From NCBI GenBank assembly GCA_002162695.1, contig MAAM01000011.1, positions 248,001 through 312,000 of the forward strand: a stretch of DNA of 64,000 nucleotides. Direction: 5' to 3'. Below are positions 8,367-45,106 of the stretch, piece after piece. The stretch comes from Cycloclasticus sp. 46_120_T64 (GTDB taxonomy: Bacteria; Pseudomonadota; Gammaproteobacteria; Methylococcales; Cycloclasticaceae). The notes beneath the pieces are model-generated. The model was not told where the DNA came from. It did no database searches and saw only the letters and a program-made list of their open reading frames with translations. The position numbers and the translations under genes were made by a program. Positions within the stretch are counted from its first letter, which is position 1, and each line of letters starts with the position of its first letter.

Positions 8367-8438
8367 GTTATCCGCGTGTCGATAATCCGTCGTCGTAGGA
8401 GCCTGTAACAAATAATAAAAATAATGGAGGGAAGCCAG

Positions 8439-9224
8439 TTGTCCGAGCAAAACCAGATAGTCCTCGTTGAAAAAAAAGAGGGTGTACTCTTTATAACGAT
8501 TAATCGGCCAGAAAAGCGTAACGCCTTGGCGCGTGAAGTTTTAAGTTTGATTAAAGATACTTTTAATGCCTATCGCGACGATCAAAGCGTCAAGCTGGCG
8601 GTATTAACCGGTGCTGGTGATAAAAGCTTCGCCGCCGGTGGTGATTTGCATGATTTATACGATGTGAGAACCGATCAACAAACGCGTGAAATGTCGGATG
8701 AGGCATTCCAATGTTTGGAAGCGGTTCGGCAGTTCCCGTTACCGGTTATTGCGGTGCTTAATGGCGATGCCTTAGGTGGCGGCAGTGAATTAGCCATCGC
8801 TTGTGATTTTCGTTTAGCGGCTGCGCACGCACGTATTGGTTTTATTCAAGGTAAATTAAATATTACCAGCGCATGGGGCGGTGGCCCAGATCTGGTTAAT
8901 TTAGTTGGGGCTAGACAAGCGTTACGTTTGTTTACGACCAGCAAAATAGTGCAACCAACAGAAGCACTAGCGCTTTCCTTGTTTGATCAAGTGGCCGAGT
9001 CAGGGCAGTCTAATGAACAATTAATTGAAGGTTTTATTGCGCCGATGATGGGTAAAACCAGCACGGTTTTGCGTGGTTTTAAAGCATTGTCGAAAGCTAA
9101 AAGAGATGGGCTGAGTCGCGAACAGCTACGCGATATTGAAGCCGATTGGTTAGTGAAAAGCTGGACCGAGCAACCCCATTGGGATGCGGTCGATCAGTTT
9201 ATGAATTCAAGGAAAGCAAAATGA
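8439..9224 (+). CDS. Enoyl-CoA hydratase/isomerase superfamily protein, ECHDC1/YgfG-like (putative acyl-malonyl-CoA decarboxylase)
   Basis: Crotonase-fold protein, 261 aa. The oxyanion-hole regions SFAAGGDLHDL and NGDALGGGSELAIACDF are present. At the place where hydratases have QPE (first catalytic Glu) it reads GKLNITSAWGGGPDL, and the second Glu region reads GARQALRL. This pattern resembles mammalian ECHDC1 (ethylmalonyl/methylmalonyl-CoA decarboxylase), so decarboxylation of a malonyl-type CoA ester is more likely than hydration. The TTG start at 8439 is chosen because a perfect GGAGGG lies seven bases upstream; the ATG at 8424 contains that GGAGGG and has no RBS of its own. The stop overlaps the mutase start (ATGA), so the two are translationally coupled. 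Confidence 0.82.
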   Translation: MSEQNQIVLVEKKEGVLFITINRPEKRNALAREVLSLIKDTFNAYRDDQSVKLAVLTGAGDKSFAAGGDLHDLYDVRTDQQTREMSDEAFQCLEAVRQFPLPVIAVLNGDALGGGSELAIACDFRLAAAHARIGFIQGKLNITSAWGGGPDLVNLVGARQALRLFTTSKIVQPTEALALSLFDQVAESGQSNEQLIEGFIAPMMGKTSTVLRGFKALSKAKRDGLSREQLRDIEADWLVKSWTEQPHWDAVDQFMNSRKAK

Positions 9225-10855
9225 GTGAAGAAAAGCAGTTTAAACGTGAAGGTGGCGGTTTTGTTGGTAACCCGTTAATTCCTAAACCAACCACTTCTTC
9301 AGGCTTGGAAGTGCCTAAAGTATTAGAACAACAAGATAATCGCGATGAAGCTCCGTTACCGGGCGAATACCCCTTTACCCGTGGTATTTTTGCCGATGGT
9401 TACCGTGGGCGTTTATGGACTTTTAGGCAGTACTCGGGGTTTGGTTCGGCTGAAGATACCAATAAACGATTTAAGTGGTTATTAGACCAAGGGCAAACCG
9501 GTTTATCGGTCGCCTTGGATTTACCGACCCAGTGTGGTTATGACCCCGTTCACCCAGTAGCCGAACCTGAAGTAGGCAAGGTTGGGGTGTCTATTTCTAA
9601 TTTATCGGAAATGGAAGTGCTGTTCGACGGGATTGATTTAAGTAATATTTCAACCTCGTTTACGATTAACGGCACCGCGGCGATTATTTACGCGATGTAT
9701 TTAGCCTGTGCCGATAAATTGGGGGTGCCGAGGGCTAAATTAACGGGCACGATTCAAAATGATATTTTGAAGGAGTACGTGGCTAGGGGGACGTGGATTT
9801 TTCCAGTCAAACCGTCTATGCGACTGACCTCGGATGTGCTTATTTATGCCGGTGAACAATCGCCGCGTTTTAACGCCATTAGTGTTGCCGGTGCGCACGT
9901 TCGTGATGCCGGTTCTACTGCTGTGGAAGAGCTCGGTTATACGTTAGCGAATGGTTTGGCTTATGTGGAAGAGTTAAAACAGCGTGGTGGCGATATCGAG
10001 AAATTAGCGCAACGTCTGAGTTTCTTTTTCTACGTGCATATGGATTTCTTCGAAGAGATTTGTAAATTCAGAGCGGCGCGCAGATTGTGGGCTAAGTTAT
10101 TAAAAGATCGGTATGGCATCACCAATGAAAAATCATTGCGTTTACGTTTTGGTGTGGTCTGTGGGGGCTCCTCCTTAGTGGCTCCGCAACCGCAAAATAA
10201 TATTGTGCGGGTGGCGGTGGAAACCATGGCCGCGGTATTAGGTGGCGCTCAATCTATTTTCACCTGCGCCTATGATGAGGCCTTCCAGATACCCACCGAG
10301 CGTAGCGCAGAAATTGCCTTGCGTACTCAGCAAATCATTGCTTTTGAAAGTGGGATTAGTAAAACCGTCGACCCACTCGGCGGTAGTCATTATGTTGAAG
10401 ACCTAACCGATAAAATGGAAGCGGAAGCGCTTAAAGTTCTCGATGAAATTGACGAATATGGTGGGGTGATTAAGGCGATTGAAGAAGGTTATATCCAAGG
10501 CAAGATTGCCACGCGTGCACTAGAAAGAAAGAAAAAAATTGATTCTGGAGAAACCGTTGTGGTTGGGCAGAATTGGTTTAGGCGTGAAAATCAAGAAAAC
10601 GAGCACGGTGAAACATTTAGTTTGGATCCTGATACGGCCAGTCGCGTGACCGAAAAATATCACGCGCTTAAATCGAAACGTGATGATGCTTTGGTAACGG
10701 AAAGTTTGCAACGCTTGCAGCAAGCGGCAATCACCGACAGCGAGAATGTTATGCCGTTTCTGGTGGACTGCTGTCATGCCTATGCAACCGTAGGAGAAAT
10801 GGTAGAGACCTTGACTGAGGTTTGGGGTGAATTTGAAGAGCCGTTAGGCTTGTAA
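9221..10855 (+). CDS. B12-dependent acyl-CoA mutase, large (substrate-binding) subunit
   Basis: TIM-barrel subunit of a coenzyme-B12 mutase, 544 aa, lacking a C-terminal cobalamin domain (supplied by the next gene). The start at ATG 9221 overlaps the preceding stop. Residues aligned to methylmalonyl-CoA mutase Tyr89, Arg207 and His244 appear as Tyr71 (RQYSGFG), Arg189 (EYVARGTW) and His226 (AGAHVRDAG). Isobutyryl-CoA mutase would show Phe and Gln, and 2-hydroxyisobutyryl-CoA mutase Ile with a Gln. A carboxylated substrate is therefore favoured. However, the YATMY loop reads FADGY (57-61) and the CoA-contacting LRFHTQTAG segment reads LRFGVVCGG (308-316), and the Tyr beside His226 is Ala. The substrate is thus probably not plain methylmalonyl-CoA. 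Confidence 0.9.
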   Translation: MSEEKQFKREGGGFVGNPLIPKPTTSSGLEVPKVLEQQDNRDEAPLPGEYPFTRGIFADGYRGRLWTFRQYSGFGSAEDTNKRFKWLLDQGQTGLSVALDLPTQCGYDPVHPVAEPEVGKVGVSISNLSEMEVLFDGIDLSNISTSFTINGTAAIIYAMYLACADKLGVPRAKLTGTIQNDILKEYVARGTWIFPVKPSMRLTSDVLIYAGEQSPRFNAISVAGAHVRDAGSTAVEELGYTLANGLAYVEELKQRGGDIEKLAQRLSFFFYVHMDFFEEICKFRAARRLWAKLLKDRYGITNEKSLRLRFGVVCGGSSLVAPQPQNNIVRVAVETMAAVLGGAQSIFTCAYDEAFQIPTERSAEIALRTQQIIAFESGISKTVDPLGGSHYVEDLTDKMEAEALKVLDEIDEYGGVIKAIEEGYIQGKIATRALERKKKIDSGETVVVGQNWFRRENQENEHGETFSLDPDTASRVTEKYHALKSKRDDALVTESLQRLQQAAITDSENVMPFLVDCCHAYATVGEMVETLTEVWGEFEEPLGL

Positions 10856-10865
10856 GGAATAGATC

Positions 10866-11258
10866 ATGTTAAAAAACAAACGAATTTTAGTTGCTAAACC
10901 CGGCCTCGACGGACACGATTCCGGCGCAAAAGTTATCGCTTTGGCTCTCCGCGACGCTGGAGCCGATGTGATTTATACCGGCTTACGAAAAACACCGGAT
11001 TATATTGCGCGTATTGCGATTGATGAAGATGTTGATGCGGTCGGCCTCAGTATTTTGTCCGGTAGTCATGTTGCCTTATTGCAGCAGACCCGCGATTCAT
11101 TACGAGAGATGGGAGCTGAGGATATGGTTGTGTTTGTTGGGGGTACTATTCCACCACAAGACGTTGATACGCTAAAAAAAGGTGGTGCGGCGGCGGTGTT
11201 TACCTCTGATATGACCATTGACGATACCTTGGAAGAAGTTCGCTCCTTACTGGTATGA
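10866..11258 (+). CDS. Acyl-CoA mutase small subunit, cobalamin-binding
   Basis: Flavodoxin-like B12-binding protein, 130 aa, with the base-off/His-on signature Asp15-x-His17-x-x-Gly20 (LDGHDSGAK), Ser62-x-Leu64 (LSILSG) and Gly92-Gly93 (VGGTIPP). It lies ten bases after the large subunit, and AGGAATAG serves as RBS. Split mutases of this type are known for archaeal methylmalonyl-CoA mutase, isobutyryl-CoA mutase and 2-hydroxyisobutyryl-CoA mutase. His17 supplies the lower cobalt ligand in the complex. Confidence 0.94.
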   Translation: MLKNKRILVAKPGLDGHDSGAKVIALALRDAGADVIYTGLRKTPDYIARIAIDEDVDAVGLSILSGSHVALLQQTRDSLREMGAEDMVVFVGGTIPPQDVDTLKKGGAAAVFTSDMTIDDTLEEVRSLLV

Positions 11259-12397
11259 ACGCGGTAATCGACAATAATGCACCCTTAACAGGGATTCGTG
11301 TTATCGAAATTACGCATATGTTGGCGGGGCCTTATAGCGGCATGTTATTGGCCGATATGGGCGCAGACGTTATTAAAATTGAAACCGGAGCGGGGGATTT
11401 AGGGCGGCAAATGGGCTCACGTTATATTGGTGAGCAGAGTGTGTATTTTGCCAGTTTAAATCGCAACAAAAAAAGCATTTGTGTGGATTTGGCGAGTGAA
11501 GAAGGGCAGCAAACCTTGCACGCCTTAGTGAAGGATAGTCATGCGCTCATTTGTAATTTACGCCCAGCAGCGATCAAGAAGCTGGGTTTGACTTACGATG
11601 CACTAAAACAATTTAACGATAAAATTGTTTGCCTTGCGATTACCGGTTACGGCCTAGAAGGCCCGTATGCCGATAAACCGGCTTATGATTATGTTATCCA
11701 GGCCTTGGCAGGGGTGATTGCGCTGACGGGTGAACCCGATGGACCGCCGGTTAAGTGTGGTTATTCGGTGGTTGATAATATCGCCGGTAATATGGGCAGT
11801 TTGGGCTTACTGGCGAAAATTATTCACGGTAAAGGCGGGCAGATTGATTTGTCCTTGTATGACACTTTGTTATCGCAGCTTAATTATGTGGCCGCTGATT
11901 ACCTCAATGGTGGTGATGACCCTAAGCGAAATCGAGGGGGTGGCCACCCTTATTTAGTACCAGCACAATTGTTTTCTACAAAAGACGGTTGTCTGGCATT
12001 ATTCATCAGTCATGATCGGTTTTGGCAGACCTTTGCTAAGACGGTCGAACGTGAGGATTGGTTAGAAGATAAGCGTTTTACCACCGTGCAGGCTAGATTT
12101 GAGAACCGTGATTTAGTGGTGTCTGCGCTTGAGTCACTCTTTATTCAGCAGACGACACAATACTGGGTGTCTTTATTAGACCCTGCGGGTGTTGTTATCG
12201 CCGGTGTGCAGTCATTGGGTGAATCCTTAGACAGTGAGTTGACGCAGAGTCAGGACATGTTGCTGGATGTGGTGTACCCAGAAGGGGTGCTTCGACTGAT
12301 TGCTAACCCTCTGAAAATGAGCGGTAGCCAGTCTCCTACCAAGCCTTCACCCGCATTGGGCGAACATACCGACGAAATTTGTATGGGCTTATTATGA
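11255..12397 (+). CDS. Class III CoA-transferase (CaiB/BaiF family)
   Basis: Transfers CoA between carboxylic acids through an aspartyl-CoA intermediate; 380 aa, normal for the family. The N-terminus LTGIRVIEITHMLAGPYSGM and LADMGADVIKIE are diagnostic. The likely nucleophile is Asp174 in SVVDNIAGNMG. The start overlaps the mutase small-subunit stop (ATGA), and its own stop overlaps the GTPase start. In the functionally parallel E. coli Sbm operon the CoA-transferase (ScpC) is of class I, so this is a non-homologous substitute. A succinate or acyl-CoA donor is likely but not shown. Confidence 0.92.
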   Translation: MNAVIDNNAPLTGIRVIEITHMLAGPYSGMLLADMGADVIKIETGAGDLGRQMGSRYIGEQSVYFASLNRNKKSICVDLASEEGQQTLHALVKDSHALICNLRPAAIKKLGLTYDALKQFNDKIVCLAITGYGLEGPYADKPAYDYVIQALAGVIALTGEPDGPPVKCGYSVVDNIAGNMGSLGLLAKIIHGKGGQIDLSLYDTLLSQLNYVAADYLNGGDDPKRNRGGGHPYLVPAQLFSTKDGCLALFISHDRFWQTFAKTVEREDWLEDKRFTTVQARFENRDLVVSALESLFIQQTTQYWVSLLDPAGVVIAGVQSLGESLDSELTQSQDMLLDVVYPEGVLRLIANPLKMSGSQSPTKPSPALGEHTDEICMGLL

Positions 12398-13266
12398 ATC
12401 GACGAGCGATTGCGCAGGGGCTCACTAAAACCTTAAATGCGAGTGTTAACGAGGTGCTGGCGAGCTCGCAACAATGCACTGACTCTTCAGCGTTAAGGCT
12501 CGGTATAACGGGGGCACCTGGGGTTGGTAAAAGCTCGATGATCGCCCGTTTAGCGGCGTATCGAGCCAATAAAGACAAGCAGTTATCGATATTAGCGATT
12601 GATCCAAGTAGCCCGTTATCGGGCGGTTCTCTGTTGGGTGACAGAATACGCATGGCGGACTTGGTCGATAACCCCGATATTTATATACGTTCCTTACCGA
12701 GTCGTAGCGCGAATGATGGGCTTTGTAATAATGTTCCGGCATTAATTAAGCTGTTAGAGGATGCTGATTTTAGTGAAATCATCCTTGAAACGGTTGGCGT
12801 TGGCCAAGCTGAATATGCGATTCGCAACCAAGTCGATATTGTGATCTTGGTGATGCAGCCGGGTTCTGGCGATACCGTTCAAAGTATGAAGGCCGGGGTG
12901 GTTGAAATGGCTGATATTCTAGTCGTCAATAAGGATGATATGGCCGGCGCCGATATCATTTATGCCGAGCTGGGGGAGATAGCAGCCCGTGGTGGCCGTC
13001 TAGAAGGTTGGTATCCAAAGGTGGTACGGATGTGCGCGCGCGATGGTAAGGGAATTGACAAGCTCAGTGAGGCGATTGATCAGGCGGTAGCTTGGCAGGC
13101 GCAACACCGAGATGTTGAACTGATCAATGCGCAGCGTAAGCGGTATCAATTGCAGAGCTTGCTCGAAAGGCGAGTCGATGAATTACTGAATGCTGCTGAA
13201 CCGCAACTGTTAAGCGATTCGGTGGCCGATTGTTTTAGCCACATCGCGGGCGCGATCAAGGATTGA
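12394..13266 (+). CDS. meaB: MeaB/ArgK-type GTPase chaperone of the B12 mutase
   Basis: G3E P-loop GTPase, 290 aa, that gates cobalamin loading and protects the mutase. P-loop GAPGVGKS is at 40-47, followed by the MeaB hallmark DPSSPLSGGSLLGDRIRM, the switch ETVGVGQAE, and NKDD for guanine. The start at ATG 12394 makes an ATGA overlap with the preceding gene; the ORF extends 15 bases further but without an RBS. It is slightly shorter at the N-terminus than typical MeaB. Placement with both mutase subunits strongly supports the role. Confidence 0.93.
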   Translation: MNRRAIAQGLTKTLNASVNEVLASSQQCTDSSALRLGITGAPGVGKSSMIARLAAYRANKDKQLSILAIDPSSPLSGGSLLGDRIRMADLVDNPDIYIRSLPSRSANDGLCNNVPALIKLLEDADFSEIILETVGVGQAEYAIRNQVDIVILVMQPGSGDTVQSMKAGVVEMADILVVNKDDMAGADIIYAELGEIAARGGRLEGWYPKVVRMCARDGKGIDKLSEAIDQAVAWQAQHRDVELINAQRKRYQLQSLLERRVDELLNAAEPQLLSDSVADCFSHIAGAIKD

Positions 13267-13443: not shown

Positions 13444-15099
13444 ATGCCTATAAGCCCATTTCTTTCACAAGATCGTATCGATGAAATGACCAATGCTGGA
13501 TATTGGGGGGGTACCACCCTTATTGAGCACTTTAACGAACATGTGCAAAACACACCCGATAAAATAGCGGTGGTTGATTACAGTAGTGAAACGAATGGAA
13601 TACGTTCATTAACGTACAGTGAGCTTGATCGTTACGTAACACGATACTCTGTGGGTTTAATTAAGCTCGGTGTTGAAGCGGGGGATGTTATTTCCTGCCA
13701 GCTAGCGAATAGATGGGAATTTTTAGCGCTGTATTTGGCGTCGATCAGAATCGGTGCGGCGATGAACCCTTTAATGCCTATTTTCAGACACCGTGAACTG
13801 ACCTATATGTTGGGTTTTTCTGAAGCCAAAGTCGTGGTGGTTGCAAAAACCTTCCGAGGTTTTGATCATGAGCAAATGATGCTCGACATTCAACCTGATT
13901 TACCGAGCTTAAAGCATGTATTGGCCATTGGTGGTGAAGATTCACCGGGCTCGTTTGAAGAGAAATTAGCGACGCCTAAATGGGAAGACGAGGCGGGTAT
14001 CGATGCGGTTTTTGCGGAAAGAAAACTTTGTGCAAACAGCGTAACCCAACTGTTATTTACCTCAGGAACAACCGGTGACCCTAAAGGGGTGATGCAAATA
14101 TCCAATACAATTTTGGCTTGTACGCGTAATTTTGTAGAAGGTTATGATCTGACGGATGCTGATAATTTCTTGATGAGTTCTCCTTTAGCGCATCAAACAG
14201 GTTTCTTAGTGGGTATTGCGGTGCCTATTTTCTTGGGTTCAAAAATGGTGTACCAAGACGTTTGGGATGCGGATAAGGCGATTCAAATCGTTCATGATGA
14301 AAAAATTCATTTCACCATGGCATCAACTCCATTCCTATCAGATATGACTAATTCTCCTCTGCTTGATACGGTTAATACCGATCAATTCAGAATATTTGTC
14401 ACGGCTGGTGCGCCTGTGCCACGAGTGGTTGCTGAAGAAGCACGTAATAGAATGCATTGCCAGGTCTATAGCGCTTACGGCATGACTGAGAACTTTGCGG
14501 TCACCCTGTGCAAGCCAGGTGATTCGATCGAGAAGGTTTATGCCACCGATGGTGTTGCGCAAAAAGGTGTGCAAGTACGCCTGGTTGATGCTGAAGGTAA
14601 TGTAGTACCAACGGGTGAAGAAGGGCAAGTGGAAACGCTGGGTTCTTATAATTTCTGCGGTTACTTGAAACGTGAAGATTTAACCAAACAAGCGGTTAAT
14701 GCTGAGGGTTGGTTGAATACCGGTGATTTGGCGCGTATGGATGAAGATGGTTTTATTCGTATCACGGGTCGTTCAAAAGATATTTTGATCCGTGGTGGTG
14801 AGAATGTGCCAGTGGTTGAAGTTGAAAACCTAATTTATAAACACCCTGCGGTACTCGATGCTGCGCTAGTGGGTGTTCCGGATTTACGCTTAGGTGAACG
14901 GGGTTGTTTGTTCGTGACGCTGAAAGACGATGCTGAATTTTCTATGAAGGAAATGGTGCGTTATCTTGAAGAAAATAAAATGGCAAAACAATATTGGCCT
15001 GAATTCCTCGAACTGCCTGAGGACTTGCCTAGAACACTCAGCGGCAAAATCCAAAAATTCAAATTACGCGATATGGCGTTAAAACACGCCGTTAATTAA
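13444..15099 (+). CDS. AMP-forming acyl-CoA synthetase, cyclohexanecarboxylate-CoA-ligase-like
   Basis: Adenylate-forming ligase of 551 aa with LFTSGTTGDPKGVM, SAYGMTENFA, WLNTGDLARMDEDG, GRSKDILIRGGENVPV and the C-terminal catalytic Lys in SGKIQKFKLR. The segment NPLMPIFRHRELTYML and FRGFDHEQM is shared with the ligases at 26778 and 28442 and recalls AliA-type cyclohexanecarboxylate-CoA ligases. It is first in an operon with a thiolase-fold/DUF35 pair and a BadI-like crotonase, behind an operator-promoter overlap. Likely role: activation of the acid entering this branch; the exact acid is unknown. Confidence 0.88.
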   Translation: MPISPFLSQDRIDEMTNAGYWGGTTLIEHFNEHVQNTPDKIAVVDYSSETNGIRSLTYSELDRYVTRYSVGLIKLGVEAGDVISCQLANRWEFLALYLASIRIGAAMNPLMPIFRHRELTYMLGFSEAKVVVVAKTFRGFDHEQMMLDIQPDLPSLKHVLAIGGEDSPGSFEEKLATPKWEDEAGIDAVFAERKLCANSVTQLLFTSGTTGDPKGVMQISNTILACTRNFVEGYDLTDADNFLMSSPLAHQTGFLVGIAVPIFLGSKMVYQDVWDADKAIQIVHDEKIHFTMASTPFLSDMTNSPLLDTVNTDQFRIFVTAGAPVPRVVAEEARNRMHCQVYSAYGMTENFAVTLCKPGDSIEKVYATDGVAQKGVQVRLVDAEGNVVPTGEEGQVETLGSYNFCGYLKREDLTKQAVNAEGWLNTGDLARMDEDGFIRITGRSKDILIRGGENVPVVEVENLIYKHPAVLDAALVGVPDLRLGERGCLFVTLKDDAEFSMKEMVRYLEENKMAKQYWPEFLELPEDLPRTLSGKIQKFKLRDMALKHAVN

Positions 15100-15151: not shown

Positions 15152-16327
15152 ATGAGTATTAGAAATAAAGCCTATATTGCAGGCGCGTATGAACACCCTA
15201 CGCGACACGCGATAGACAAGAGTACCGCGCAGTTACACGCGGAAGTGGCTAAGGGAGCGTTGGAAGATGCTGGCCTCACTAAAGATGATGTAGATGCTTA
15301 TTACTGTGCGGGCGATGCCCCAGGTTTAGGTGGTTTATCGATGGTTGAGTACATGGGTTTACAGGTGCAACATATTGATACTACTGAAACGGGTGGTTCA
15401 TCTTATGTGGCGCATATTGGTCACGCCGCAGCTGCTATTGCCGCAGGCAAATGTAATGTAGCGCTGATTACCTTAGCGGGTCGCCCAAAAGCAGAAGGCA
15501 TGGCAACAGGTACAAAACCACGTAACTGGGGCGGAGATGCACCGGATAATAGCTTTGAGTTCCCTTATGGTTCAACCGTAACTAATAACTATGCGATGGC
15601 TGCTATGCGTCATATGCATGAATTTGGTACCACCAGTGAGCAGCTAGCATGGATTAAGGTCGCCGCTTCTCATCACGCACAACATAATGAACGTGCAGCT
15701 ATTCGTAAGGTTTTAACGGTTGAAGATGTGGTTAACTCCCCAATGATTGCCGATCCACTCCATAGAATGGATTGCTGTGTGATTACCGATGGTGGTGGTG
15801 CATTAGTGATTGTTAGCCCTGAAATTGCTAAAAAACTAGAACGTAAATGTGTGCGTATCTTGGGTCATGGCGAAGCGCCAAAAACCCGTATTGGTGGGCA
15901 AATTGATTTGACTTACACTGGCGCTAAATGGTCGGGTCCTAAGGCATTTGAAGAAGCTAAAGTAACGCCGGCAGATATCGATTACGCGTCTATTTATGAC
16001 TCCTTCACTATTACTGTTTTAGAAACCCTTGAAGATCTTGGTTTTTGTGAAAAAGGTCAAGGCGGCAAGTTTGTTGCGGATGGTAATCTAATTTCTGGCG
16101 TGGGTAAGTTGCCGTTTAATACTGATGGTGGTGGTTTATGTAATAACCACCCAGCAAACCGTGGTGGTATGACCAAAGTTTTAGAAGCGGTGCGTCAACT
16201 ACGTGGTGAAGCTCACCCAATGGTACAAGTACCCAACTGTAAACTTGCTGTTGCTCATGGCACCGGTGGTTCACTCGGTACACGCATGGGTAGCGCAACG
16301 GTAATTCTTGAGAGGGACGACGCATGA
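15152..16327 (+). CDS. Thiolase-fold protein (SCP-x/Ltp type) lacking nucleophilic Cys; putative retro-aldolase
   Basis: 391 aa member of the lipid-transfer-protein/thiolase family. The loop normally carrying the nucleophile reads TTETGGSSYV, with Ser83 where thiolases have Cys, and the C-terminal catalytic Cys region reads LAVAHGTGGSLG. His333 (NNHPANRGG) and the family Tyr282 (IYDSFT) are kept. Loss of Cys together with a DUF35 partner is the arrangement described for steroid side-chain aldolases (Ltp2 with ChsH2-DUF35), which cleave tertiary beta-hydroxyacyl-CoA to a ketone plus acyl-CoA. I see no second C-terminal Tyr like that of Ltp2, so the same mechanism is not assured. It could alternatively be a variant thiolase such as BbsB. 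Confidence 0.85.
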   Translation: MSIRNKAYIAGAYEHPTRHAIDKSTAQLHAEVAKGALEDAGLTKDDVDAYYCAGDAPGLGGLSMVEYMGLQVQHIDTTETGGSSYVAHIGHAAAAIAAGKCNVALITLAGRPKAEGMATGTKPRNWGGDAPDNSFEFPYGSTVTNNYAMAAMRHMHEFGTTSEQLAWIKVAASHHAQHNERAAIRKVLTVEDVVNSPMIADPLHRMDCCVITDGGGALVIVSPEIAKKLERKCVRILGHGEAPKTRIGGQIDLTYTGAKWSGPKAFEEAKVTPADIDYASIYDSFTITVLETLEDLGFCEKGQGGKFVADGNLISGVGKLPFNTDGGGLCNNHPANRGGMTKVLEAVRQLRGEAHPMVQVPNCKLAVAHGTGGSLGTRMGSATVILERDDA

Positions 16328-16719
16328 GTCAGTTAGGACCACATAATTCTGCTCCAGAGAGCAATATAGAAATTCAACCTTTTTGGGATGCAACTGCAGA
16401 AGGCAAGTTACTGCTAAAAAAATGTAATGGGTGTGGAAAAATTCACTATTACCCGCGCACCATTTGCCCATTTTGCTTTAGTGATGACACCGTTTGGATT
16501 GAAGCATCCGGCAAAGGTACTATTTATAGTTACAGCGTTATTCGTCGTGTTGAAGTGCCTTATGTGATGGCGTACGTCACCTTAGAAGAAGGGCCAACGA
16601 TGATGACCAATATTATTGACTGTGACATGGACTCGGTGCGTATCGACATGCCAGTGACAGTTTCTTTTGTCGACACGGGTGAAGGCAATGCCTTACCCAT
16701 GTTTACCCCAGCAGCATAA
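16324..16719 (+). CDS. DUF35 OB-fold/zinc-ribbon partner of the thiolase-fold protein
   Basis: 131 aa. The rubredoxin-like zinc ribbon Cys-x2-Cys ... Cys-x2-Cys (KCNGCGKIHYYPRTICPFC) is followed by an OB fold with GKGTIYSYSVIRR and VAYVTLEEG-like strands. Its start overlaps the stop of the thiolase-fold gene (ATGA), as expected for obligate partners. In characterised pairs the DUF35 subunit stabilises the thiolase-fold subunit and helps bind acyl-CoA. Confidence 0.92.
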   Translation: MSQLGPHNSAPESNIEIQPFWDATAEGKLLLKKCNGCGKIHYYPRTICPFCFSDDTVWIEASGKGTIYSYSVIRRVEVPYVMAYVTLEEGPTMMTNIIDCDMDSVRIDMPVTVSFVDTGEGNALPMFTPAA

Positions 16720-16742: not shown

Positions 16743-17540
16743 ATGAATTACGAAGATATCCTTTATGAGATAAAAGACCGCATTGCAACGATCACCATTA
16801 ACCGCCCTAAAGTATTAAATGCTTTTACTGGCGACACTATTAAAGAAATGGAGCACGCTTTAGCTGCTGCAGAAGCTGATTCAGCCGTTGGTGTTATCGT
16901 GTTAACCGGTGTGGGCGAACGAGCTTTTTGTGTGGGTGGAGACGTTAACTGGGAAAAAGGTCATAGTGAAGGTGAAGATGCTCCTGAAAGTGGCTTGAAA
17001 GACCTAGATTTCCAATTCAATCACCAATTATTGGCGTGTACAAAACCCGTTATTTGTCGAGTGAATGGTTATGCGATTGGTGCCGGTAACCATATTGCTT
17101 ATTTCTGTGATATTACCATTGCGGCTGATCATGCGATCATGGGACAAAATGGCGTACGTGTGGGTTCACCAGCTTGTGGTTACATTGTTTCTCAAGCGGC
17201 TAATATTATTGGCCAAAAACGCGCGCGTGAAATGTGGATGCTTGCGCGTCGTTACCCTGCACAAACCTTCATGGATTGGGGATTAGTGAATGCGGTTGTA
17301 CCCATGGCTGATCTTGATGCTGAAGTTAAAAAGTGGGCAGATGAATTTTTAGCGTTAAGCCCAACGTGTTTGAAACTACTTAAACGCTCATTCTACAATC
17401 AAGCTGGGCCTATTTTAGATAAAGACATGACTGACGTTATTGCAGAATTTGCACCAGACTATTTTGAGACTGGCGAGCAACTTGAAGGCGCTAATGCTTT
17501 CCTTGAAAAAAGAAAGCCTGACTTTAGCGCATTTAGTTAA
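16743..17540 (+). CDS. BadI/MenB-like crotonase (putative ring- or C-C-cleaving acyl-CoA hydrolase)
   Basis: 265 aa crotonase closest by eye to BadI (2-ketocyclohexanecarboxyl-CoA hydrolase) and MenB: NYEDILYEI start, AFCVGGDVNW, GYAIGAGNHIA, GQNGVRVGS, QKRAREMWMLARRY, GLVNAVVP and the C-terminal FLEKRKPDF. In BadI and MenB the segment after GxKxGS is xDxGYG(S/T) with a catalytic Asp; here it is PACGYIV (143-149), so Asp is replaced by Ala144 and the following Ser/Thr by Val149. The reaction may therefore differ from beta-ketoacyl ring hydrolysis. It ends the operon at a strong inverted repeat. Confidence 0.87.
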   Translation: MNYEDILYEIKDRIATITINRPKVLNAFTGDTIKEMEHALAAAEADSAVGVIVLTGVGERAFCVGGDVNWEKGHSEGEDAPESGLKDLDFQFNHQLLACTKPVICRVNGYAIGAGNHIAYFCDITIAADHAIMGQNGVRVGSPACGYIVSQAANIIGQKRAREMWMLARRYPAQTFMDWGLVNAVVPMADLDAEVKKWADEFLALSPTCLKLLKRSFYNQAGPILDKDMTDVIAEFAPDYFETGEQLEGANAFLEKRKPDFSAFS

Positions 17541-18393: not shown

Positions 18394-19260
18394 TTACTTA
18401 CTCGACAAAAACTCAGGTTCCTTGTACAGGTGAAAGCCATTAAAGGCTTTGCAGTTGTCGTGAGAGGGTACCGGCCAGTTTTCTTTTGCTAACGGTAAAC
18501 CGCCATCGACATCCATTGTATGGCCGGTGATATAAGCCGCCCCATCGGATAACAAATAGGCGATAGCGGATGAAATTTCAGCTTCAGTCGCTTGTCGTTT
18601 CATCGGTACTTGATCGCGACGTTTTTTAAGAATTTCTTTGAAATCATCGGGGTATGTTTCCATCCCACTCGAGGCAACTGAACCGGGGGCGATGGCGTTA
18701 ACACGAACGCCTGAATGCACCCATTCCAGTGCTGCCGTTTGAGTTAGGTTCATCATGCCTGCGCGAGCGGCACCGGTGTGTCCCATATGCGGCATGCCAT
18801 AACCGACACTGGCGACTATATTAACGATAGCGCCACCGTGCTCTTTCATATAGAGGTTGTACACTTCACGCATCATATAAAAACCACCGTTTAAATTATT
18901 ACGTATCACCGCGTTCCAGCCGTTATCGCTAATATTATCTAGCGAGGAGGGGAATTGTCCGCCGGCATTATTGACCAAACCATCTATCCGGCCGTGGTTA
19001 TCGATAATGTCGAGTAGGGTTTCTTTGATCGCCGCCGAATCACGTATGTCCGTACTGTAGAAATCGGCTTGGTAACCATCTTTAGCTAGCTCATTGGCAA
19101 CTTTTTCTAATTTATTTATGTCACGGCCGAGAATAATAACCTTCGCACCGAGTGAAGCTAGTTCATGTGCGGTGCAACGGCCGATTCCACTGCCGCCGCC
19201 GGTAATGATGATCACTTTCTGTTGAAAAATGTCTTGTCTGAAAATTGATTGATACACCAT
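18394..19260 (-). CDS. Short-chain dehydrogenase/reductase, AtuB/AtuG or PECR-like
   Basis: 288 aa Rossmann enzyme with the TGGGSGIG cofactor motif, NNAGGQFPS and INxIAPG-like VNAIAPGSV. The classical YxxxK is not present: the equivalent segment is GHTGAARAGMMNLTQ, so Tyr is replaced by Thr and Lys by Arg. The same replacement pattern (HSGAARAG) occurs in peroxisomal trans-2-enoyl-CoA reductases, so NADPH-dependent enoyl-CoA reduction or a related CoA-ester reaction is possible. ATG 19260 is preferred over the upstream TTG because GGGA lies upstream of it. It is divergent from the Atu-like operon across a shared operator. Confidence 0.85.
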   Translation of the reverse strand: MVYQSIFRQDIFQQKVIIITGGGSGIGRCTAHELASLGAKVIILGRDINKLEKVANELAKDGYQADFYSTDIRDSAAIKETLLDIIDNHGRIDGLVNNAGGQFPSSLDNISDNGWNAVIRNNLNGGFYMMREVYNLYMKEHGGAIVNIVASVGYGMPHMGHTGAARAGMMNLTQTAALEWVHSGVRVNAIAPGSVASSGMETYPDDFKEILKKRRDQVPMKRQATEAEISSAIAYLLSDGAAYITGHTMDVDGGLPLAKENWPVPSHDNCKAFNGFHLYKEPEFLSSK

Positions 19261-19318
19261 GTTTTTTCCCAATAAATTTGTTATCCGATAGACCTTAAAT
19301 ATATACCTAATTCAGGGA

Positions 19319-19336
19319 AACTAACAGTTGTTAGTT
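19319..19336. promoter_or_regulatory. Operator AACTAACAGTTGTTAGTT
   Basis: The best copy of the shared dyad: 8+2+8 with perfect symmetry outside the central GT. It lies between divergent SDR and Atu-like genes and contains the probable -35 of the latter. Confidence 0.75.
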
Positions 19337-19357
19337 ATACTTTATTTTGTTTATACT
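19328..19357 (+). promoter_or_regulatory. Sigma70 promoter of the Atu-like operon
   Basis: TTGTTA, 18-base spacer, TATACT, with the -35 embedded in the dyad operator, a layout typical of repression by steric block. Confidence 0.5.
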
Positions 19358-19393
19358 ACAGGCGTATAAATATTAATAAAGGAAGCGTTAGCA

Positions 19394-20557
19394 ATGATAT
19401 TTACCCAAGAGCACAATATGCTTCGTGACACAGTTGCGAAGTTTGTCGATAGAGAAATTAACCCCTATGTAGATGAGTGGGAGGATGCCGGAATATTTCC
19501 CGCGCATGAGTTATTTAAGAAAATGGGCGATGCTGGCTTTTTAGGCATCAACCGATCAGAAGCGCTGGGTGGACAGGCATTGGACTATTCCTATGTCGTC
19601 GTGTTTGCCGAAGAAGTCGGACGCATCAAGTGTTCTGGGGTATCAACGGCGATTGGGGTACAAACGGATATGTGTACACCAGCGTTGGCCAATTTTGGTA
19701 GCGACGAATTAAAACGCAATTACTTGATGCCGGCAATTGCCGGTGATTCGGTGGGTTGTATTGGGGTTAGCGAAGAAGGTGCGGGTTCAGACGTTGCCTC
19801 TATTAAGACCGAAGCTCGCCGTGTAGGTGATGAGTATGTGATCAATGGCAGTAAAATGTGGATTACAACATCTACCCAGGCAGACTGGGTTTGTTTGTTA
19901 TGTAATACCGGTGGTGATGCAGGACCGCATAAAAACAAATCACTGATTATTGTGCCGCTTGATGCTAAAGGGGTGACCCGTGGTAAAAGCCTGAAAAAAT
20001 TAGGTGCACATAGTTCTGATACAGCGCCGTTGTATTTTGATGATGTACGGGTGCCGGTTAGCAATCGAATTGGTGAAGAAGGCCAGGGTTTTATTTATCA
20101 AATGAAGCAATTCCAAGAGGAACGCCTGTTTGTGATGTCCAAGTATCTTAGCCAGGTGCAAGATGCGGTGGATATTACGATTGAGTACACCAAGCAGCGT
20201 AAGGCCTTCGGTAAACCTTTATTGGCTAACCAAGAGGTTTATTTCAAACTCGCTGAAATGCAAACTGAAATACAAGCGGTACGTGCGCTGATTTATTTGG
20301 CCTGTGAAAAATACATTAATGGCGAAGACGTCGATATGTTGACCTCGATGGCTAAGTTTAAGGTGGGCGCCTTGGGGCAAACGATCCCATCGGCTTGTCT
20401 ACAGTATTGGGGTGGCCAAGGCTTTATGTGGGATAACCTGATTAGCCGTATTTTCCGTGATACACGTTTATGTTCTATTGGTGGTGGTGCTAACGAAATC
20501 ATGCTGGAAATTATTTCGAAGAAGATGAACATTCACCCTTCTCAAATAGGGCGTTAA
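19394..20557 (+). CDS. atuD: Acyl-CoA dehydrogenase, AtuD (citronellyl-CoA dehydrogenase)-like
   Basis: FAD-dependent acyl-CoA dehydrogenase, 387 aa. IGVSEEGAGSDVASIKTEA and NGSKMWITTSTQAD form the FAD/substrate site, and KQRKAFGKPL and QYWGGQGFMWDN are family marks. The canonical C-terminal YEG is replaced by SIGGGANEIM, and the alternative helix-G Glu position (as in LCAD) is Gln. The same SIGGGAxEIML pattern is what I recall for AtuD of Pseudomonas, and the N-terminus MIFTQEH also matches that group. The expected reaction is alpha,beta-desaturation of a methyl-branched acyl-CoA. It is first in the operon, with AGGAAG before ATG. Confidence 0.88.
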   Translation: MIFTQEHNMLRDTVAKFVDREINPYVDEWEDAGIFPAHELFKKMGDAGFLGINRSEALGGQALDYSYVVVFAEEVGRIKCSGVSTAIGVQTDMCTPALANFGSDELKRNYLMPAIAGDSVGCIGVSEEGAGSDVASIKTEARRVGDEYVINGSKMWITTSTQADWVCLLCNTGGDAGPHKNKSLIIVPLDAKGVTRGKSLKKLGAHSSDTAPLYFDDVRVPVSNRIGEEGQGFIYQMKQFQEERLFVMSKYLSQVQDAVDITIEYTKQRKAFGKPLLANQEVYFKLAEMQTEIQAVRALIYLACEKYINGEDVDMLTSMAKFKVGALGQTIPSACLQYWGGQGFMWDNLISRIFRDTRLCSIGGGANEIMLEIISKKMNIHPSQIGR

Positions 20558-20562
20558 ACAGA

Positions 20563-22182
20563 ATGAGTATCTTTCAGACTAAAGTTAATCCACAAAGTGA
20601 GTCGTTTAAAAAAAATAGGCAGGATTTATTAGGCCTAAGTGAACATATCAACGAGCTTGAAAGCCGTGTACACGCGGCGTCGAATAAAAAACGTGAGTTA
20701 TTCAAGAAACGTGGCCAATTACTGCCTAGAGATAGACTGGCTTTATTATTAGATCCGGGCTCAAGCTTCATTGAGCTGAGTACTTTGGCGGGGTATGCGC
20801 AGCACGATGACGATGGCGATAAAAATGTTTATGGCGCCGGTATTATCGTCGGTATTGGCTTCGTTGAAGGCACCCGCTGCATGGTTTATATCAATGATGC
20901 GGCGATTAAGGGTGGTACTAATATGCCACAGTCTTATGACAAATTAAGACGCGCACAAGACATTGCTAGCCACTCAAAACTGCCTTTCCTTTGTTTAGTG
21001 CAAAGTGGTGGCGGTAACCTGTTTCTACAGCATTTAGGCTTTAACCGTGCGGGTCACCGTTTTATGACCCAAGCACGTTCATCGGCCGCCGGTATTCCAC
21101 AAATAACCGTGGTACACGGGGCGTCGACGGCGGGTGGTGCTTATATCCCTGGGATGTCTGATTATGTCATTATGGTACGCGGCAAAGCCCGTGCTTATCT
21201 TGCTGGGCCACCATTGCTTAAAGCGGCAACCGGTGAAATTTCAGAAGAAGAAGAGTTGGGTGGCGCAGAAATGCACGCCAGAACGTCGGGTTTAAGTGAT
21301 TTACTGGCCGAAGATGACGCGCATGCGATTGAAATGACCCGAGAAGTGGTCAAAGGCTTGTGTTGGAACGATCGTTTACCTGAGCCAAAAGAAAAAACCT
21401 TTAAGCAACCGCGTTATGACATTGATGATTTATGCGGCATCGTGCCGGTTGATTATAAAAATCCTTATGATTGTCGAGAAGTCATCGCGCGTTTAGTCGA
21501 TGATTCCGATTTCGTAGAGTTTAAAGAAAGCTATGACCCTTTCACCATCTGTGGTTTTGGCGAAATTGAAGGTCAGGCCTGTGGTTTTATCGGCAATAAC
21601 GGGCCGATTACCAATAATGGTGCGGGCAAGGCCTCACAGTTTATTCAACTGTGTTGCCAAGCGGGTAAGCCGATTATCTTCTTACAAAATACCACCGGGT
21701 TTATCGTCGGTGCACAGCACGAACAAGAAGGCATGATTAAAAACGGCGCGAAGCTGATTCAAGCCGTTTCTAACGCAACGGTGCCTAGAATTACTTTAAA
21801 TATTGGTGGTGCATTTGGTGCGGGTAACTACGCGATGTCGGGTCGATCTTTTGAACCTGAGTTTTTATTTGCTTGGCCAACCAATAGGGTATCGGTGATG
21901 GGCGGCGAGCAAGCGGCGACGGTGATGTCGATCGTGTATGAAAACAAACAAAAATCTAAAGACCTCGATATTGATCAACAATTTGTCGATAAGCAGGCGA
22001 AGGAAATTATCGATTATTATGCCGATGTTTCATCGGCCTTGTATTGTACGTCTAGGGTCTGGGATGACGGTATTATCGACCCGCGCAAGAGTCGACGTTT
22101 ACTGGCCGAATTATTAGATATTTGTGTGCGTGGTGATCAAGCCAAGCTTGATTCGAATACCTTCGGCGTAGCGAGGTTTTAA
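20563..22182 (+). CDS. atuC: Acyl-CoA carboxylase beta subunit, AtuC (geranyl-CoA carboxylase)-like
   Basis: Carboxyltransferase subunit, 539 aa, typical of AtuC/LiuB. RGQLLPRDRLALLLDPGSSF starts the N-terminal half. The acyl-CoA-binding GGAYIPGMSDY and the C-terminal half with GAFGAGNYAMSGRSFEP, FAWPTNRVSVMGGEQAA are present. It transfers CO2 from biotin to the gamma methyl carbon of an alpha,beta-unsaturated methyl-branched acyl-CoA. The gap to the preceding gene is five bases, and its stop overlaps the next start (TAATG). The neighbouring AtuA-, AtuD- and AtuE-like genes favour geranyl-type over 3-methylcrotonyl-type carboxylase, but a related cyclic or branched substrate is equally possible. 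Confidence 0.9.
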   Translation: MSIFQTKVNPQSESFKKNRQDLLGLSEHINELESRVHAASNKKRELFKKRGQLLPRDRLALLLDPGSSFIELSTLAGYAQHDDDGDKNVYGAGIIVGIGFVEGTRCMVYINDAAIKGGTNMPQSYDKLRRAQDIASHSKLPFLCLVQSGGGNLFLQHLGFNRAGHRFMTQARSSAAGIPQITVVHGASTAGGAYIPGMSDYVIMVRGKARAYLAGPPLLKAATGEISEEEELGGAEMHARTSGLSDLLAEDDAHAIEMTREVVKGLCWNDRLPEPKEKTFKQPRYDIDDLCGIVPVDYKNPYDCREVIARLVDDSDFVEFKESYDPFTICGFGEIEGQACGFIGNNGPITNNGAGKASQFIQLCCQAGKPIIFLQNTTGFIVGAQHEQEGMIKNGAKLIQAVSNATVPRITLNIGGAFGAGNYAMSGRSFEPEFLFAWPTNRVSVMGGEQAATVMSIVYENKQKSKDLDIDQQFVDKQAKEIIDYYADVSSALYCTSRVWDDGIIDPRKSRRLLAELLDICVRGDQAKLDSNTFGVARF

Positions 22183-23000
22183 TGATGAATAATCTTCCAG
22201 ATTTTGAAACCTTATTATTGAAAGGGATCGATGGCCGTTTATACGTCACCTTGAACCGCCCCGCCCAGCGTAATGCGATGAATAATCAAATGAATAAGGA
22301 GTTACACGAACTTGTTGATTATTTAACCGACAATGATGCCGTTCGGGTATTGATTTTACGCGGTGCAGGCGGGCACTTTTGTGCCGGTGGCGATATCAAA
22401 GAACGTAAATCACAAACTGAGTCATCGATAGAAGGCTACGACCCTGCGCGTGAACGCAATATTCGTTCAGGGCAATTGCTGCATAAGTTTTGGAACCTTT
22501 CACAAACCTTTATTGCGGTAGTTGAAGGAGCGGCCATGGGGGGCGGTTTTGGTTTTGCTTGTTTAGCCGATTTAACGATTATTCAAAAAGATGCACGCCT
22601 AGGCATGCCAGAAACAACCTTAGGCATTGCGCCAGCGCAAATTGCTCCATACGTGGTGAATCGAATTGGTTTAACACGGGCTAAACAAATGGCTTTAACC
22701 GGCGCACGAATCAATGGTGAGGCGGCATTCCATCTTGGCATCGCGCAATACCTCGCGGATGACGAAGAATCATTAAACGCGATTGTTGAGTCGGTTGTTG
22801 ACCAAGTTGAGCGTTGTGCACCGAAGGCTTGTGCGGCGACGAAAAAAATAATGCAGCAAGTTGGGCGTAGTGACGGTGAAAAAATGATCGTCGATGCGGC
22901 GGATATATTTTCTAGTTTAAATAAAAATGATGAAGGAAAGGAAGGTCACGCAGCGTTCGTCGAGAAGAGAAAACCTGTTTGGTTGAAGGAGCAAGTATGA
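22182..23000 (+). CDS. atuE: Enoyl-CoA hydratase, AtuE (isohexenylglutaconyl-CoA hydratase)-like
   Basis: Crotonase of 272 aa. FCAGGDIKERK and EGAAMGGGFGFACLAD form the oxyanion hole, and the catalytic Glu region GMPETTLGIAPAQIAP is intact, so real hydration is expected, unlike the crotonases at 8439 and 16743. It sits between the two carboxylase subunits, as AtuE does in Pseudomonas, and would add water to a 3-substituted glutaconyl-CoA, giving a tertiary 3-hydroxyglutaryl-CoA. No HMG-CoA-lyase-type gene (LiuE) is present in the window to cleave that product. Confidence 0.87.
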   Translation: MMNNLPDFETLLLKGIDGRLYVTLNRPAQRNAMNNQMNKELHELVDYLTDNDAVRVLILRGAGGHFCAGGDIKERKSQTESSIEGYDPARERNIRSGQLLHKFWNLSQTFIAVVEGAAMGGGFGFACLADLTIIQKDARLGMPETTLGIAPAQIAPYVVNRIGLTRAKQMALTGARINGEAAFHLGIAQYLADDEESLNAIVESVVDQVERCAPKACAATKKIMQQVGRSDGEKMIVDAADIFSSLNKNDEGKEGHAAFVEKRKPVWLKEQV

Positions 23001-24964
23001 GAGGTTTTAATACAGTATTAGTCGCCAACCGTGGTGAGATTGCGGTAAGAATCATCAATACGGCGAAAAAAATGGGTTACGAAACGGTCGCTGTTTACAG
23101 TGAGGCCGATGCCAATTCAGTGCACGTGAAACAGGCTGATAAAGCCATTTGCATTGGCGAGTCGCCAGCCAATCAATCTTATTTGGATATTGAAAAGATT
23201 ATTTCGGCCGCTAAAGAAACCGGCGCCGAAGTGATACATCCGGGTTATGGTTTTTTATCAGAATCTACGGATTTTGTAGAAGCTTGCGAGCAAGCGGGGT
23301 TTATTTTTGTTGGCCCACCCGCGAGTGCGGTAGCGCTGATGGCGAGCAAAACGGTGGCACGACATGAGATGGCTAAAGTCGGTGTGCCTTTGGTGCCCGG
23401 TTACGATGGCCCATCGGCTGATGATGCGGTGCTGCAAACCGAAGCGGATCGTATTGGTTACCCATTAATGGTTAAAGCCGCTGCTGGCGGCGGTGGACGC
23501 GGCATTAGAATTGCGAATAATTCAGCGGGTTTATTGGATGCAGTTTCTTCTGCGCGAGCCGAGGCGTTGAGTACTTTCCGTTCAGCCGAATTATTATTAG
23601 AAAAATGCGTGGTCAATGCGCGTCATATTGAAGTTCAAGTATTTGCCGACCAAGCGGGTAATACCGTTTACCTGGGGGACCGGGATTGTTCGATGCAACG
23701 CCGTAACCAGAAGGTTATCGAAGAAGCTCCGGCGGTTAATATCAGCGATGAAGTGCGTAAAAAAATGGGCGAGGTCGCGGTACAAGCGGCGAAAGCTGTT
23801 GCTTATGTTGGCGCGGGTACGGTTGAATTTTTGCTTGAGGAAACGGGTGAATTCTATTTCCTAGAAATGAATACCCGCTTACAAGTTGAGCACCCAGTGA
23901 CCGAAATGGTAACGGGTGAAGACTTGGTCGAGTGGCAATTAAGGGTGGCTGCGGGTGAAAACCTGCCGAAAACTCAACAACAAATTACCCTGCAAGGGCA
24001 CGCCATCGAAGTACGTATTTACGCGGAAGATTTTGAGGCGGGTTTTGTACCGCAAACCGGTACGATATTAAGCTGGCAAGCACCATCCGGTGAAGGCATA
24101 CGGGTAGACAGTGGGATTGCTAGCGGACAAGTGGTGAGCCCTCATTACGACTCGATGGTGGCGAAACTGATCTGTTTTGCTAATAACCGCGATGAGTCTA
24201 TTCGCCGTTTACGCCGTGCGTTGCGAGATAGCCATTTATTAGGTTTATCGAGTAATAAAACCTTCTTATTACAATTGATTGACGAGCCTGTTTATATCGC
24301 GGGTAAGGCGACTACGCGTTTCATTGAAGAGCAGTTCTTACCTGCGCACGCAGAGAACCTTGAAGCGAGTGATACGGTGTGGGCTTTAGCGGCGGTGTTA
24401 TTATCAAGAACCGTGGGTGCGAGTGGTTGGCGCAGCACAGGAACATTGCGTTGGCCGGTACGCCTGAGCATTCAATCTGAAGTTCGTGACTTTTACGTAT
24501 CGCAACAAGCCGAGGTGTATACAGTCGAAAACATGCCAGGGGTGGATGAGCGCCGAGTGGTGACTGAACTACAAATACTCGAAGAAAACGGGGTGAATAT
24601 TGACATATTGTTGAACGGTGTTCGTCAACGACTTGCAGTCGCCTTAGATCAACAAGAAACCGCTTATATCGATACCCGTTTCGAAGCGTTTAGCATCGAG
24701 AAATTATCCTTTTCTGATAAAACAGACAACCTAGAGAGTGAACGTAACTTAGCGGCGCCGATGAGTGGCCGGATATCTGAAATTAGAGCGAAAGCGGGTG
24801 ATACGGTCAACAAGGGTGATGTGTTAGTGGTGCTTGAATCAATGAAAATGTTCCAAGAACTCACCGCGCAGGCGTCAGGTGTTATCGCCGAGGTGTATAT
24901 ATCAGCCGATGATCAAGTAGACGTGGGTGCTGCCTTGATTGATTTAGCCGATGAGGAGGGCTAG
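22997..24964 (+). CDS. atuF: Biotin-dependent acyl-CoA carboxylase alpha subunit, AtuF-like
   Basis: Biotin carboxylase fused to a biotin carrier domain, 655 aa. NRGEIAVRI opens the protein. The ATP-grasp motif KAAAGGGGRGIR, YLGDRDCSMQRRNQK, FLEMNTRLQVEHPVTE and IYAEDF follow. The C-terminal carrier domain has the biotinylated Lys617 in ESMKM (more often EAMKM). ATG 22997 is chosen because it makes an ATGA overlap with AtuE and has GAAGGAG upstream; the longer frame has none. It forms a complex with the beta subunit two genes upstream. Confidence 0.93.
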   Translation: MRGFNTVLVANRGEIAVRIINTAKKMGYETVAVYSEADANSVHVKQADKAICIGESPANQSYLDIEKIISAAKETGAEVIHPGYGFLSESTDFVEACEQAGFIFVGPPASAVALMASKTVARHEMAKVGVPLVPGYDGPSADDAVLQTEADRIGYPLMVKAAAGGGGRGIRIANNSAGLLDAVSSARAEALSTFRSAELLLEKCVVNARHIEVQVFADQAGNTVYLGDRDCSMQRRNQKVIEEAPAVNISDEVRKKMGEVAVQAAKAVAYVGAGTVEFLLEETGEFYFLEMNTRLQVEHPVTEMVTGEDLVEWQLRVAAGENLPKTQQQITLQGHAIEVRIYAEDFEAGFVPQTGTILSWQAPSGEGIRVDSGIASGQVVSPHYDSMVAKLICFANNRDESIRRLRRALRDSHLLGLSSNKTFLLQLIDEPVYIAGKATTRFIEEQFLPAHAENLEASDTVWALAAVLLSRTVGASGWRSTGTLRWPVRLSIQSEVRDFYVSQQAEVYTVENMPGVDERRVVTELQILEENGVNIDILLNGVRQRLAVALDQQETAYIDTRFEAFSIEKLSFSDKTDNLESERNLAAPMSGRISEIRAKAGDTVNKGDVLVVLESMKMFQELTAQASGVIAEVYISADDQVDVGAALIDLADEEG

Positions 24965-24969
24965 TTCAG

Positions 24970-26763: not shown

Positions 26764-26777
26764 TAAAAGGAATTATT

Positions 26778-28403: not shown

Positions 28404-28441
28404 CCAGCAGTATTTAACACATTATTAATAAAGAGGAATAA

Positions 28442-30067: not shown

Positions 30068-30088
30068 TTAAGAGATAAGGAAATAACA

Positions 30089-38793: not shown

Positions 38794-39246
38794 ATACCAC
38801 CAATAAACTACAGCATAGCGGTAGTCGTTATGCTGTGGTCTTCCGTATTAATTTATGCTTAGTAGCCGGGCTACTTATTCTCCCGCTGTTTTGACTAACA
38901 TGAATTTTTTTCATCGACTCCCTAAGCGTTCAATTTATCTACTTCCACATACAGCGGCTGGGTGCTTTCCGCCGATCAATTCTTCTATGGACTCGTTTGA
39001 GTGTTTTTTAACACCTAAGCTTATTTCGATGAAATCTTACCCCCCGGCCGTTTTTACTAAAGTGTCTCCTTGAGTCTTGGGCACTACAACTCTGTCTCCG
39101 AAGGTGGCTTTATTTAGGACATATTAGTTGCTGTTTCCTTCTGTATATACCTTGTTTTATATTATATCTATTTGATATTAAACCATTTGTTGATGTTGGT
39201 ATGGATTGTGCATTTTGTTTGGATCAGTTTATTCATAGGGAGTGTG
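38794..39246. other. Gene-free spacer with weak hairpin
   Basis: An eight-base-pair hairpin ACAGCATA/TATGCTGT (38810-38836) follows the activator gene and may end it. The rest has an ORF of 72 codons that does not look like protein, and no clear sigma54 element. Confidence 0.45.
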
Positions 39247-42878: not shown

Positions 42879-42909
42879 ACCGCTTTAGGGGGGTGTTCTC
42901 GGCAAAAGA

Positions 42910-42943: not shown

Positions 42944-42984
42944 GGCGGTAAAAAAAAACAAATAATGATAAGGGAAGAGGAGCT

Positions 42985-45069: not shown

Positions 45070-45106
45070 GCGCGACTCTATATAAATATTTAACGGGAAT
45101 ATATCA

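Follow-up and report, generated by a model that had tools for sequence, protein, structure and literature searches.

A cysteine-less thiolase-fold protein and its DUF35 partner in Cycloclasticus: a probable CoA-dependent retro-aldolase

What reaction may be carried out by a thiolase-fold protein devoid of the thiolase nucleophile and encoded together with a DUF35 protein? The question is raised by a gene pair of Cycloclasticus sp. 46_120_T64, found in a stretch of 64,000 nucleotides (here "the window"; contig MAAM01000011.1, positions 248,001 to 312,000). Positions are those of the window, unless the contig is indicated.

The gene pair and its conservation

The pair is composed of the following features, where THL indicates the thiolase-fold subunit:

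15152-16327, + strand: THL, thiolase-fold subunit, 391 aa, NCBIfam NF006010/PRK08142 family
16324-16719, + strand: DUF35 subunit (zinc ribbon plus OB fold), 131 aa, Pfam zf-ChsH2 and OB_ChsH2_C
16324-16327, + strand: ATGA, shared by the end of THL and the beginning of DUF35; translational coupling

A DUF35 partner overlapping by four bases had been described in the original prediction, and the two reading frames do share the bases ATGA. THL scores 730 bits against the NF006010/PRK08142 model (cut-off 462) and is thus assigned to this family, named "thiolase domain-containing protein" by NCBI; against the BbsB model the score is 149.8, with a cut-off of 750. The adjoining protein, with its zf-ChsH2 and OB_ChsH2_C domains, places THL among the DUF35-partnered thiolase-fold enzymes. 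Its zinc motif is of the C4 type (Cys34-x2-Cys37-x10-Cys48-x2-Cys51) and its nearest solved sequence, among PDB matches, is ChsH2(DUF35) (6ok1_B).

A scan of GTDB species genomes revealed at least 590 places encoding THL relatives. The best 80 of them share 71-82% identity with THL along its full length; their hosts are mostly Alpha-, Beta- and Gammaproteobacteria, joined by Rokuibacteriota. A haloarchaeal plasmid encodes a relative at 64%. The DUF35 partner directly follows THL in 79 of the 80 orthologous loci, the remaining one ending at a contig end, so that the coupling is not due to chance. The overlap is the identical four bases at 31 of the 79 junctions, and 76 lie within 6 bases. In the window's own genus, THL is present in 2 of 18 sampled genomes. 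Most of the annotated records seen name the relatives thiolase or acetyl-CoA acetyltransferase.

Active site, fold and phylogeny

The residues corresponding to the catalytic positions of thiolases and of two retro-aldolases, CtSal and Ltp2, were located by alignment:

15395-15397, + strand: Gly82 codon, position of the thiolase nucleophilic cysteine; invariant in orthologues
15995-15997, + strand: Tyr282 codon (YDSF), equivalent to CtSal Tyr302 and Ltp2 Tyr294, predicted base for the beta-hydroxyl proton; invariant
16001-16003, + strand: Ser284 codon, equivalent to CtSal Cys304 and Ltp2 His296; 81 of 82 sequences
16148-16150, + strand: His333 codon, equivalent to Ltp2 Tyr344, CtSal Gln352 and the thiolase GHP histidine, proposed general acid; 81 of 82 sequences

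Gly82 aligns with Gly89 of CtSal and with Cys83 of 7yvy, a thiolase from Pyrococcus; further equivalents are Tyr147 (CtSal Tyr165) and Gly373 (CtSal Gly391). The published catalytic residue numbers of CtSal and Ltp2 landed on the expected letters of the alignment. The loss of the catalytic cysteine, already noticed in the original prediction, is therefore real, but its position is Gly82 and not Ser83, which is discarded as the nucleophile site. Similarly, "Cys-less" holds for the catalytic positions, while seven other cysteines (Cys52, 101, 208, 209, 299, 330, 363) are found elsewhere in THL. The tyrosine of YDSFT is kept, as had been stated; the retained GHP histidine, His333, had been overlooked.

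Among the 82 orthologue sequences Gly82, Tyr282, Asp283 and Phe285 are invariant, and the one exception for both Ser284 and His333 is a 33-35% paralogue (locus L088). In wider relatives the third letter of the motif varies (YDSF, YDAF, YDCF, YDHF), and the histidine is either kept or lost.

Four characterized or solved relatives serve for comparison. CtSal-CtShy(DUF35), the bile acid retro-aldolase of Comamonas testosteroni (9myr), shares with the THL pair the fold, the glycine at the nucleophile site, the base tyrosine and the DUF35 partner. It differs in its essential Cys304 and in Gln352, which correspond to Ser284 and His333 of THL, and belongs to a separate clade at about 32-34% identity; its DUF35 has a C3H1 zinc site and is fused to MaoC, whereas the partner in the window is a separate protein with an ordinary C4 site. 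TcLtp2-ChsH2(DUF35), a retro-aldolase for C3 steroid side chains (6ok1), has in common the fold, the base tyrosine, the lack of a nucleophile and a C4 DUF35; it carries His296 and the acid Tyr344 in place of Ser284 and His333, and lies in a separate clade (about 31-33% identity). In the substrate of Ltp2 the hydroxyl is borne by a tertiary carbon, and a ketone is released. Both enzymes work on steroids, whereas no steroid genes were recognized around THL. A further relative is 4u4e, a "putative thiolase" from Sphaerobacter thermophilus solved by structural genomics, which shows the GGSS, YDSF and HP motifs, about 46-48% identity, and falls in the THL clade. The literature searched yielded no description of this protein and, to our knowledge, it has never been assayed. 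BbsAB (7pxp), a benzoylsuccinyl-CoA thiolase, shares the thiolase fold and the heteromer with a DUF35 protein, but has the nucleophilic cysteine and HDAF.

THL thus combines the two marks of the Ltp2/Sal mechanism, a base tyrosine within YD-x-(F/Y) and a glycine at the nucleophile site, with neither the Tyr344/His296 pair of Ltp2 nor the acid Cys304 and C3H1 partner of Sal. In CtSal, the glycine found where thiolases carry their cysteine excludes thiolysis, Y302F leaves only trace activity, and Cys304Ser is inactive (PMC12329534). Since the latter change abolishes activity, the YDSF motif cannot act exactly like the YDCY of CtSal, and Ser284 is no simple substitute for Cys304. Judging from the aligned residues, THL is a protein without the covalent catalyst of thiolases, with the base of retro-aldolases, and with a histidine at the acid position of Ltp2; no such Tyr/Ser/His site was found described in the literature searched.

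A structure model of THL was built from 61 sequences (pLDDT 84.8, pTM 0.89); an earlier one, from 26 sequences (pLDDT 75), was weak at the active site. The best matches are CtSal 9myr (Z 47.3, rmsd 2.8, 369 aligned), 4u4e (Z 46.2, rmsd 2.2, 352 aligned), Ltp2 6ok1 (Z 45.2, rmsd 2.5, 359 aligned) and TbSLP (Z 44.5, rmsd 2.5, 361 aligned), where steps in Z below 1 count as ties, the gaps among the four are only about 1-3, and a common fold is no proof of function. Cys thiolases all score lower: 7yvy 42.8, 6esq 42.4, PhlC 41.0, BbsB at most 40.7. The superposition on Ltp2, suggested along with the original prediction, hence ranks above every Cys thiolase.

A maximum-likelihood tree sets 31 Cys-less rows, CtSal and Ltp2 among them, apart from six Cys thiolases (with BbsB and SCP2-thiolase), by a split supported at 100/100. 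The THL clade (22 rows, including 4u4e) is supported at 100/99; its sister position to CtSal plus Ltp2 has moderate support (90/85). A larger first tree features the same main split. A sequence at first taken for the BbsB of EbN1 proved to be Ltp2-like, with YDHF, and is treated as such.

These data bear on the possibility that THL is an ordinary thiolase, BbsAB-like or SCP2-type, that thiolyses 3-oxoacyl-CoA. The thiolase fold, the histidine at the GHP position, the NCBI name and a DUF35 partner like that of BbsA all fit such an enzyme. In essentially every orthologue, however, glycine replaces the nucleophilic cysteine and YDSF replaces HDAF/HDCF; BbsB and SCP2-thiolase fall outside the THL group, and the BbsB score is far below its cut-off. 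A phylogeny within BbsAB-like thiolases, which would have spoken against the original prediction, is not what the tree displays. By motif, tree and order of the model matches, an ordinary thiolase is discarded, with only a very slight chance left to it.

The structural match to TbSLP, likewise Cys-less, together with the retained His333, might also suggest a decarboxylase or condensing enzyme of thiolase fold, active on malonyl-type CoA esters. TbSLP does decarboxylate malonyl-CoA, but slowly (kcat 0.005 per second), and its authors propose that it is an aldolase (PMC12329534); THL, moreover, keeps the aldolase tyrosine. This function is regarded as very unlikely.

The loss of the thiolase cysteine, together with the likeness to two proven steroid aldolases, indicates that THL is probably a non-steroid enzyme cutting C-C bonds. 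We infer that the THL-DUF35 pair is most likely a CoA-dependent retro-aldolase. The central claim of the original prediction, that of a retro-aldolase with a DUF35 partner and not of a thiolase, finds good support in the lost cysteine, the kept tyrosine, the tree and the order of the model matches.

Gene neighbourhoods and the question of the substrate

The genes flanking the pair in the window are:

8424-13266, + strand: crotonase, methylmalonyl-CoA-mutase-type large subunit, B12 subunit, class III CoA transferase and MeaB-type GTPase, upstream
13444-15099, + strand: AMP-forming acyl-CoA ligase resembling cyclohexanecarboxylate-CoA ligase (TIGR03208 score 628 bits, under its cut-off of 792), 52 bases upstream of the pair
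16743-17540, + strand: MenB/BadI-like crotonase, 23 bases downstream of the pair

Ligase, THL, DUF35 and crotonase are kept together in one congener, G314 (67, 94, 84 and 83% identity, respectively), where neither the mutase nor the genes for the CoA transferase and the GTPase adjoin the pair. The mutase has a single relative, at 68%, among 184 other genomes of the class; it belongs to G091, and no THL lies in its vicinity. The mutase set was accordingly rejected as part of the unit; the 8424-13266 genes are probably co-transcribed with the pair, outside the core unit.

The MenB/BadI-like crotonase has Ala for the Asp of the MenB SFDGG loop, by alignment, and, by eye, Gly at the first hydratase Glu. 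Among solved structures, 2-hydroxyisobutyryl-CoA mutase 4r3u is nearest to the mutase-type large subunit with its separate B12 subunit (9221-11258). Yet the Tyr (RQY) and Arg (VARG) of the methylmalonyl type are retained, and Ala stands at the position of MCM Tyr243 (YHMQ to AHVR); given the roles of these residues, the pattern suggests a bulkier dicarboxylic acyl-CoA as substrate.

No steroid genes were recognized among the proteins scanned around the pair, in agreement with the original prediction, nor does any protein of the genome match the HsaC-like TIGR03213 above cut-off; a steroid pathway was therefore rejected.

Further genes of catabolic type are found at a greater distance. An Atu-like cluster (18394-31252) includes an SDR, acyl-CoA dehydrogenases, a biotin carboxylase pair, a crotonase, two ligases and an AtuA with a ferredoxin-like domain, along with cyclohexanecarboxyl-CoA-like genes; its content suggests the use of acyclic or cyclic terpenoid acids. 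At 39172-46462, inspection of the sequence by eye points to a YCF48-like protein, an MMPL transporter and proteins resembling DUF1302 and DUF1329; uptake-type sets of this kind occur in degraders of hydrophobic compounds. Three genes at 47900-52962 resemble acetone carboxylase (alpha-like 323 bits, gamma 149 bits against the solved subunits); in their vicinity lie a sigma-54 activator (36853) and a CoA ligase of the acetate/acetoacetate type (53059). Upstream of the window (contig 221550-248000), a leucine/isovalerate cluster (MCC, HMG-CoA lyase), a Baeyer-Villiger monooxygenase and an esterase are present, and the window therefore belongs to a larger catabolic island.

In other genomes the context of the pair differs widely, some orthologues being located among housekeeping genes. 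A single conserved pathway around it was sought and not found, ligase and MenB-like crotonase being retained only in G314. Some gene types are, nevertheless, over-represented close to the pair (within 3 kb, compared to beyond 6 kb): acyl-CoA dehydrogenases (23 and 4), MaoC hydratases (11 and 0), crotonases (11 and 2) and class III CoA transferases (19 and 3), in contrast to SDRs (17 and 16). As the loci are related, the excess shrinks when distinct protein clusters are counted (MaoC 4 and 0, acyl-CoA dehydrogenase 6 and 4). Neither a Cys thiolase nor a FadB-type dehydrogenase was found in the orthologue neighbourhoods, near or far. The pattern is that expected for dehydrogenation and hydration, followed by a retro-aldol step.

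On a Delftia acidovorans plasmid (L120, 1-13820), the pair is found between IS1071 copies with two acyl-CoA dehydrogenases, a ligase, a MaoC, a crotonase and an SDR, a near-complete acyl-CoA pathway in what appears to be a composite transposon. Distant members also adjoin MaoC hydratases (Azospirillum, Pseudosulfitobacter). In about 20 loci, within the range L033-L075 and many of them Reyranella-type, the pair has a luciferase-like (LLM) oxidoreductase in its vicinity.

As a special case of the CoA retro-aldolase, the original prediction had proposed cleavage of tertiary 3-hydroxyacyl-CoA from branched terpenoid acids to give a ketone; in this genome the ketone could perhaps be acetone, destined for the 47900-52962 enzyme. 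The formation of a ketone from such substrates is plausible. Ltp2 and ipfDE (PMC9195938) act on hydroxyls at tertiary carbons and give a ketone or catechol. For limonene degradation, thiolase-superfamily cleavage at a tertiary carbon has been proposed, with LrcC, a member of the HMG-CoA synthase superfamily, splitting a tertiary alcohol (PMC12583861). The island, with its Atu-like, cyclohexanecarboxyl-CoA-ligase-/dehydrogenase-like and acetone-carboxylase-like genes, points in the same direction. The acetone-carboxylase gene (AcxB) is present in 4 of 18 congeners, including both THL carriers; yet it is also found in 2 of the 16 congeners devoid of THL, and in none of 45 THL genomes searched outside the genus, so that acetone carboxylase was excluded as a general partner of the pair. 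Furthermore, HMG-CoA lyase and MCC-like genes are already available in this genome for 3-methylcrotonyl-CoA, and the neighbourhoods found elsewhere are not terpenoid-like. As the pair occurs in such different neighbourhoods, the tertiary substrate, its terpenoid origin and the acetone product are put forward as hypotheses, and this special case, taken as a whole, is considered rather doubtful.

Proposed mechanism and implications

For the retro-aldolase, the following course may be proposed. THL and the DUF35 protein would form one enzyme, in which DUF35 would give the binding cleft its shape, as it does in CtSal and Ltp2. A 3-hydroxyacyl-CoA would bind, and Tyr282 would take the proton of the beta-hydroxyl; breakage of the C2-C3 bond would then give an aldehyde or ketone and an acyl-CoA enolate. 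The enolate may be held by a putative oxyanion site, formed in part by Gly373; His333 would be the most likely source of its proton, Ser284 serving as an additional hydrogen-bond donor. As there is no nucleophilic cysteine, neither an acyl-enzyme nor a second CoA is needed. In this organism, at a guess, the neighbouring ligase activates a branched or alicyclic acid, from which the substrate would probably be formed.

The prediction had also called the enzyme a candidate new acyl-CoA retro-aldolase, which is right in part. Non-steroid thiolase-type retro-aldolases have already been published: IpfD/IpfE are reported to cleave ibuprofenyl-CoA dihydrodiol at a tertiary carbon (PMC9195938). Compared by published description, both systems join a thiolase-type protein to a partner, but the substrate of IpfDE is an aromatic dihydrodiol. 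The THL family is uncharacterized and widespread: in the literature searched, no measured activity was found for members of its clade, and a search for the family by name returned nothing.

A broader reading may tentatively be advanced, as possible rather than probable: the family would consist of widespread non-steroid CoA retro-aldolases that have solved catalysis in a third way (Tyr282 as base, His333 as acid, Ser284 as helper), cleaving hindered or tertiary 3-hydroxyacyl-CoAs, by which bacteria and haloarchaea would pass beta-branched or alicyclic acids that block ordinary beta-oxidation.

The family is probably misnamed in databases, and 4u4e already provides a crystal structure of its motif class. 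If THL relatives are retro-aldolases, many beta-oxidation annotations would be wrong at the cleavage step, and a single assay could then test for a general way around beta-branched or ring-bearing acids.
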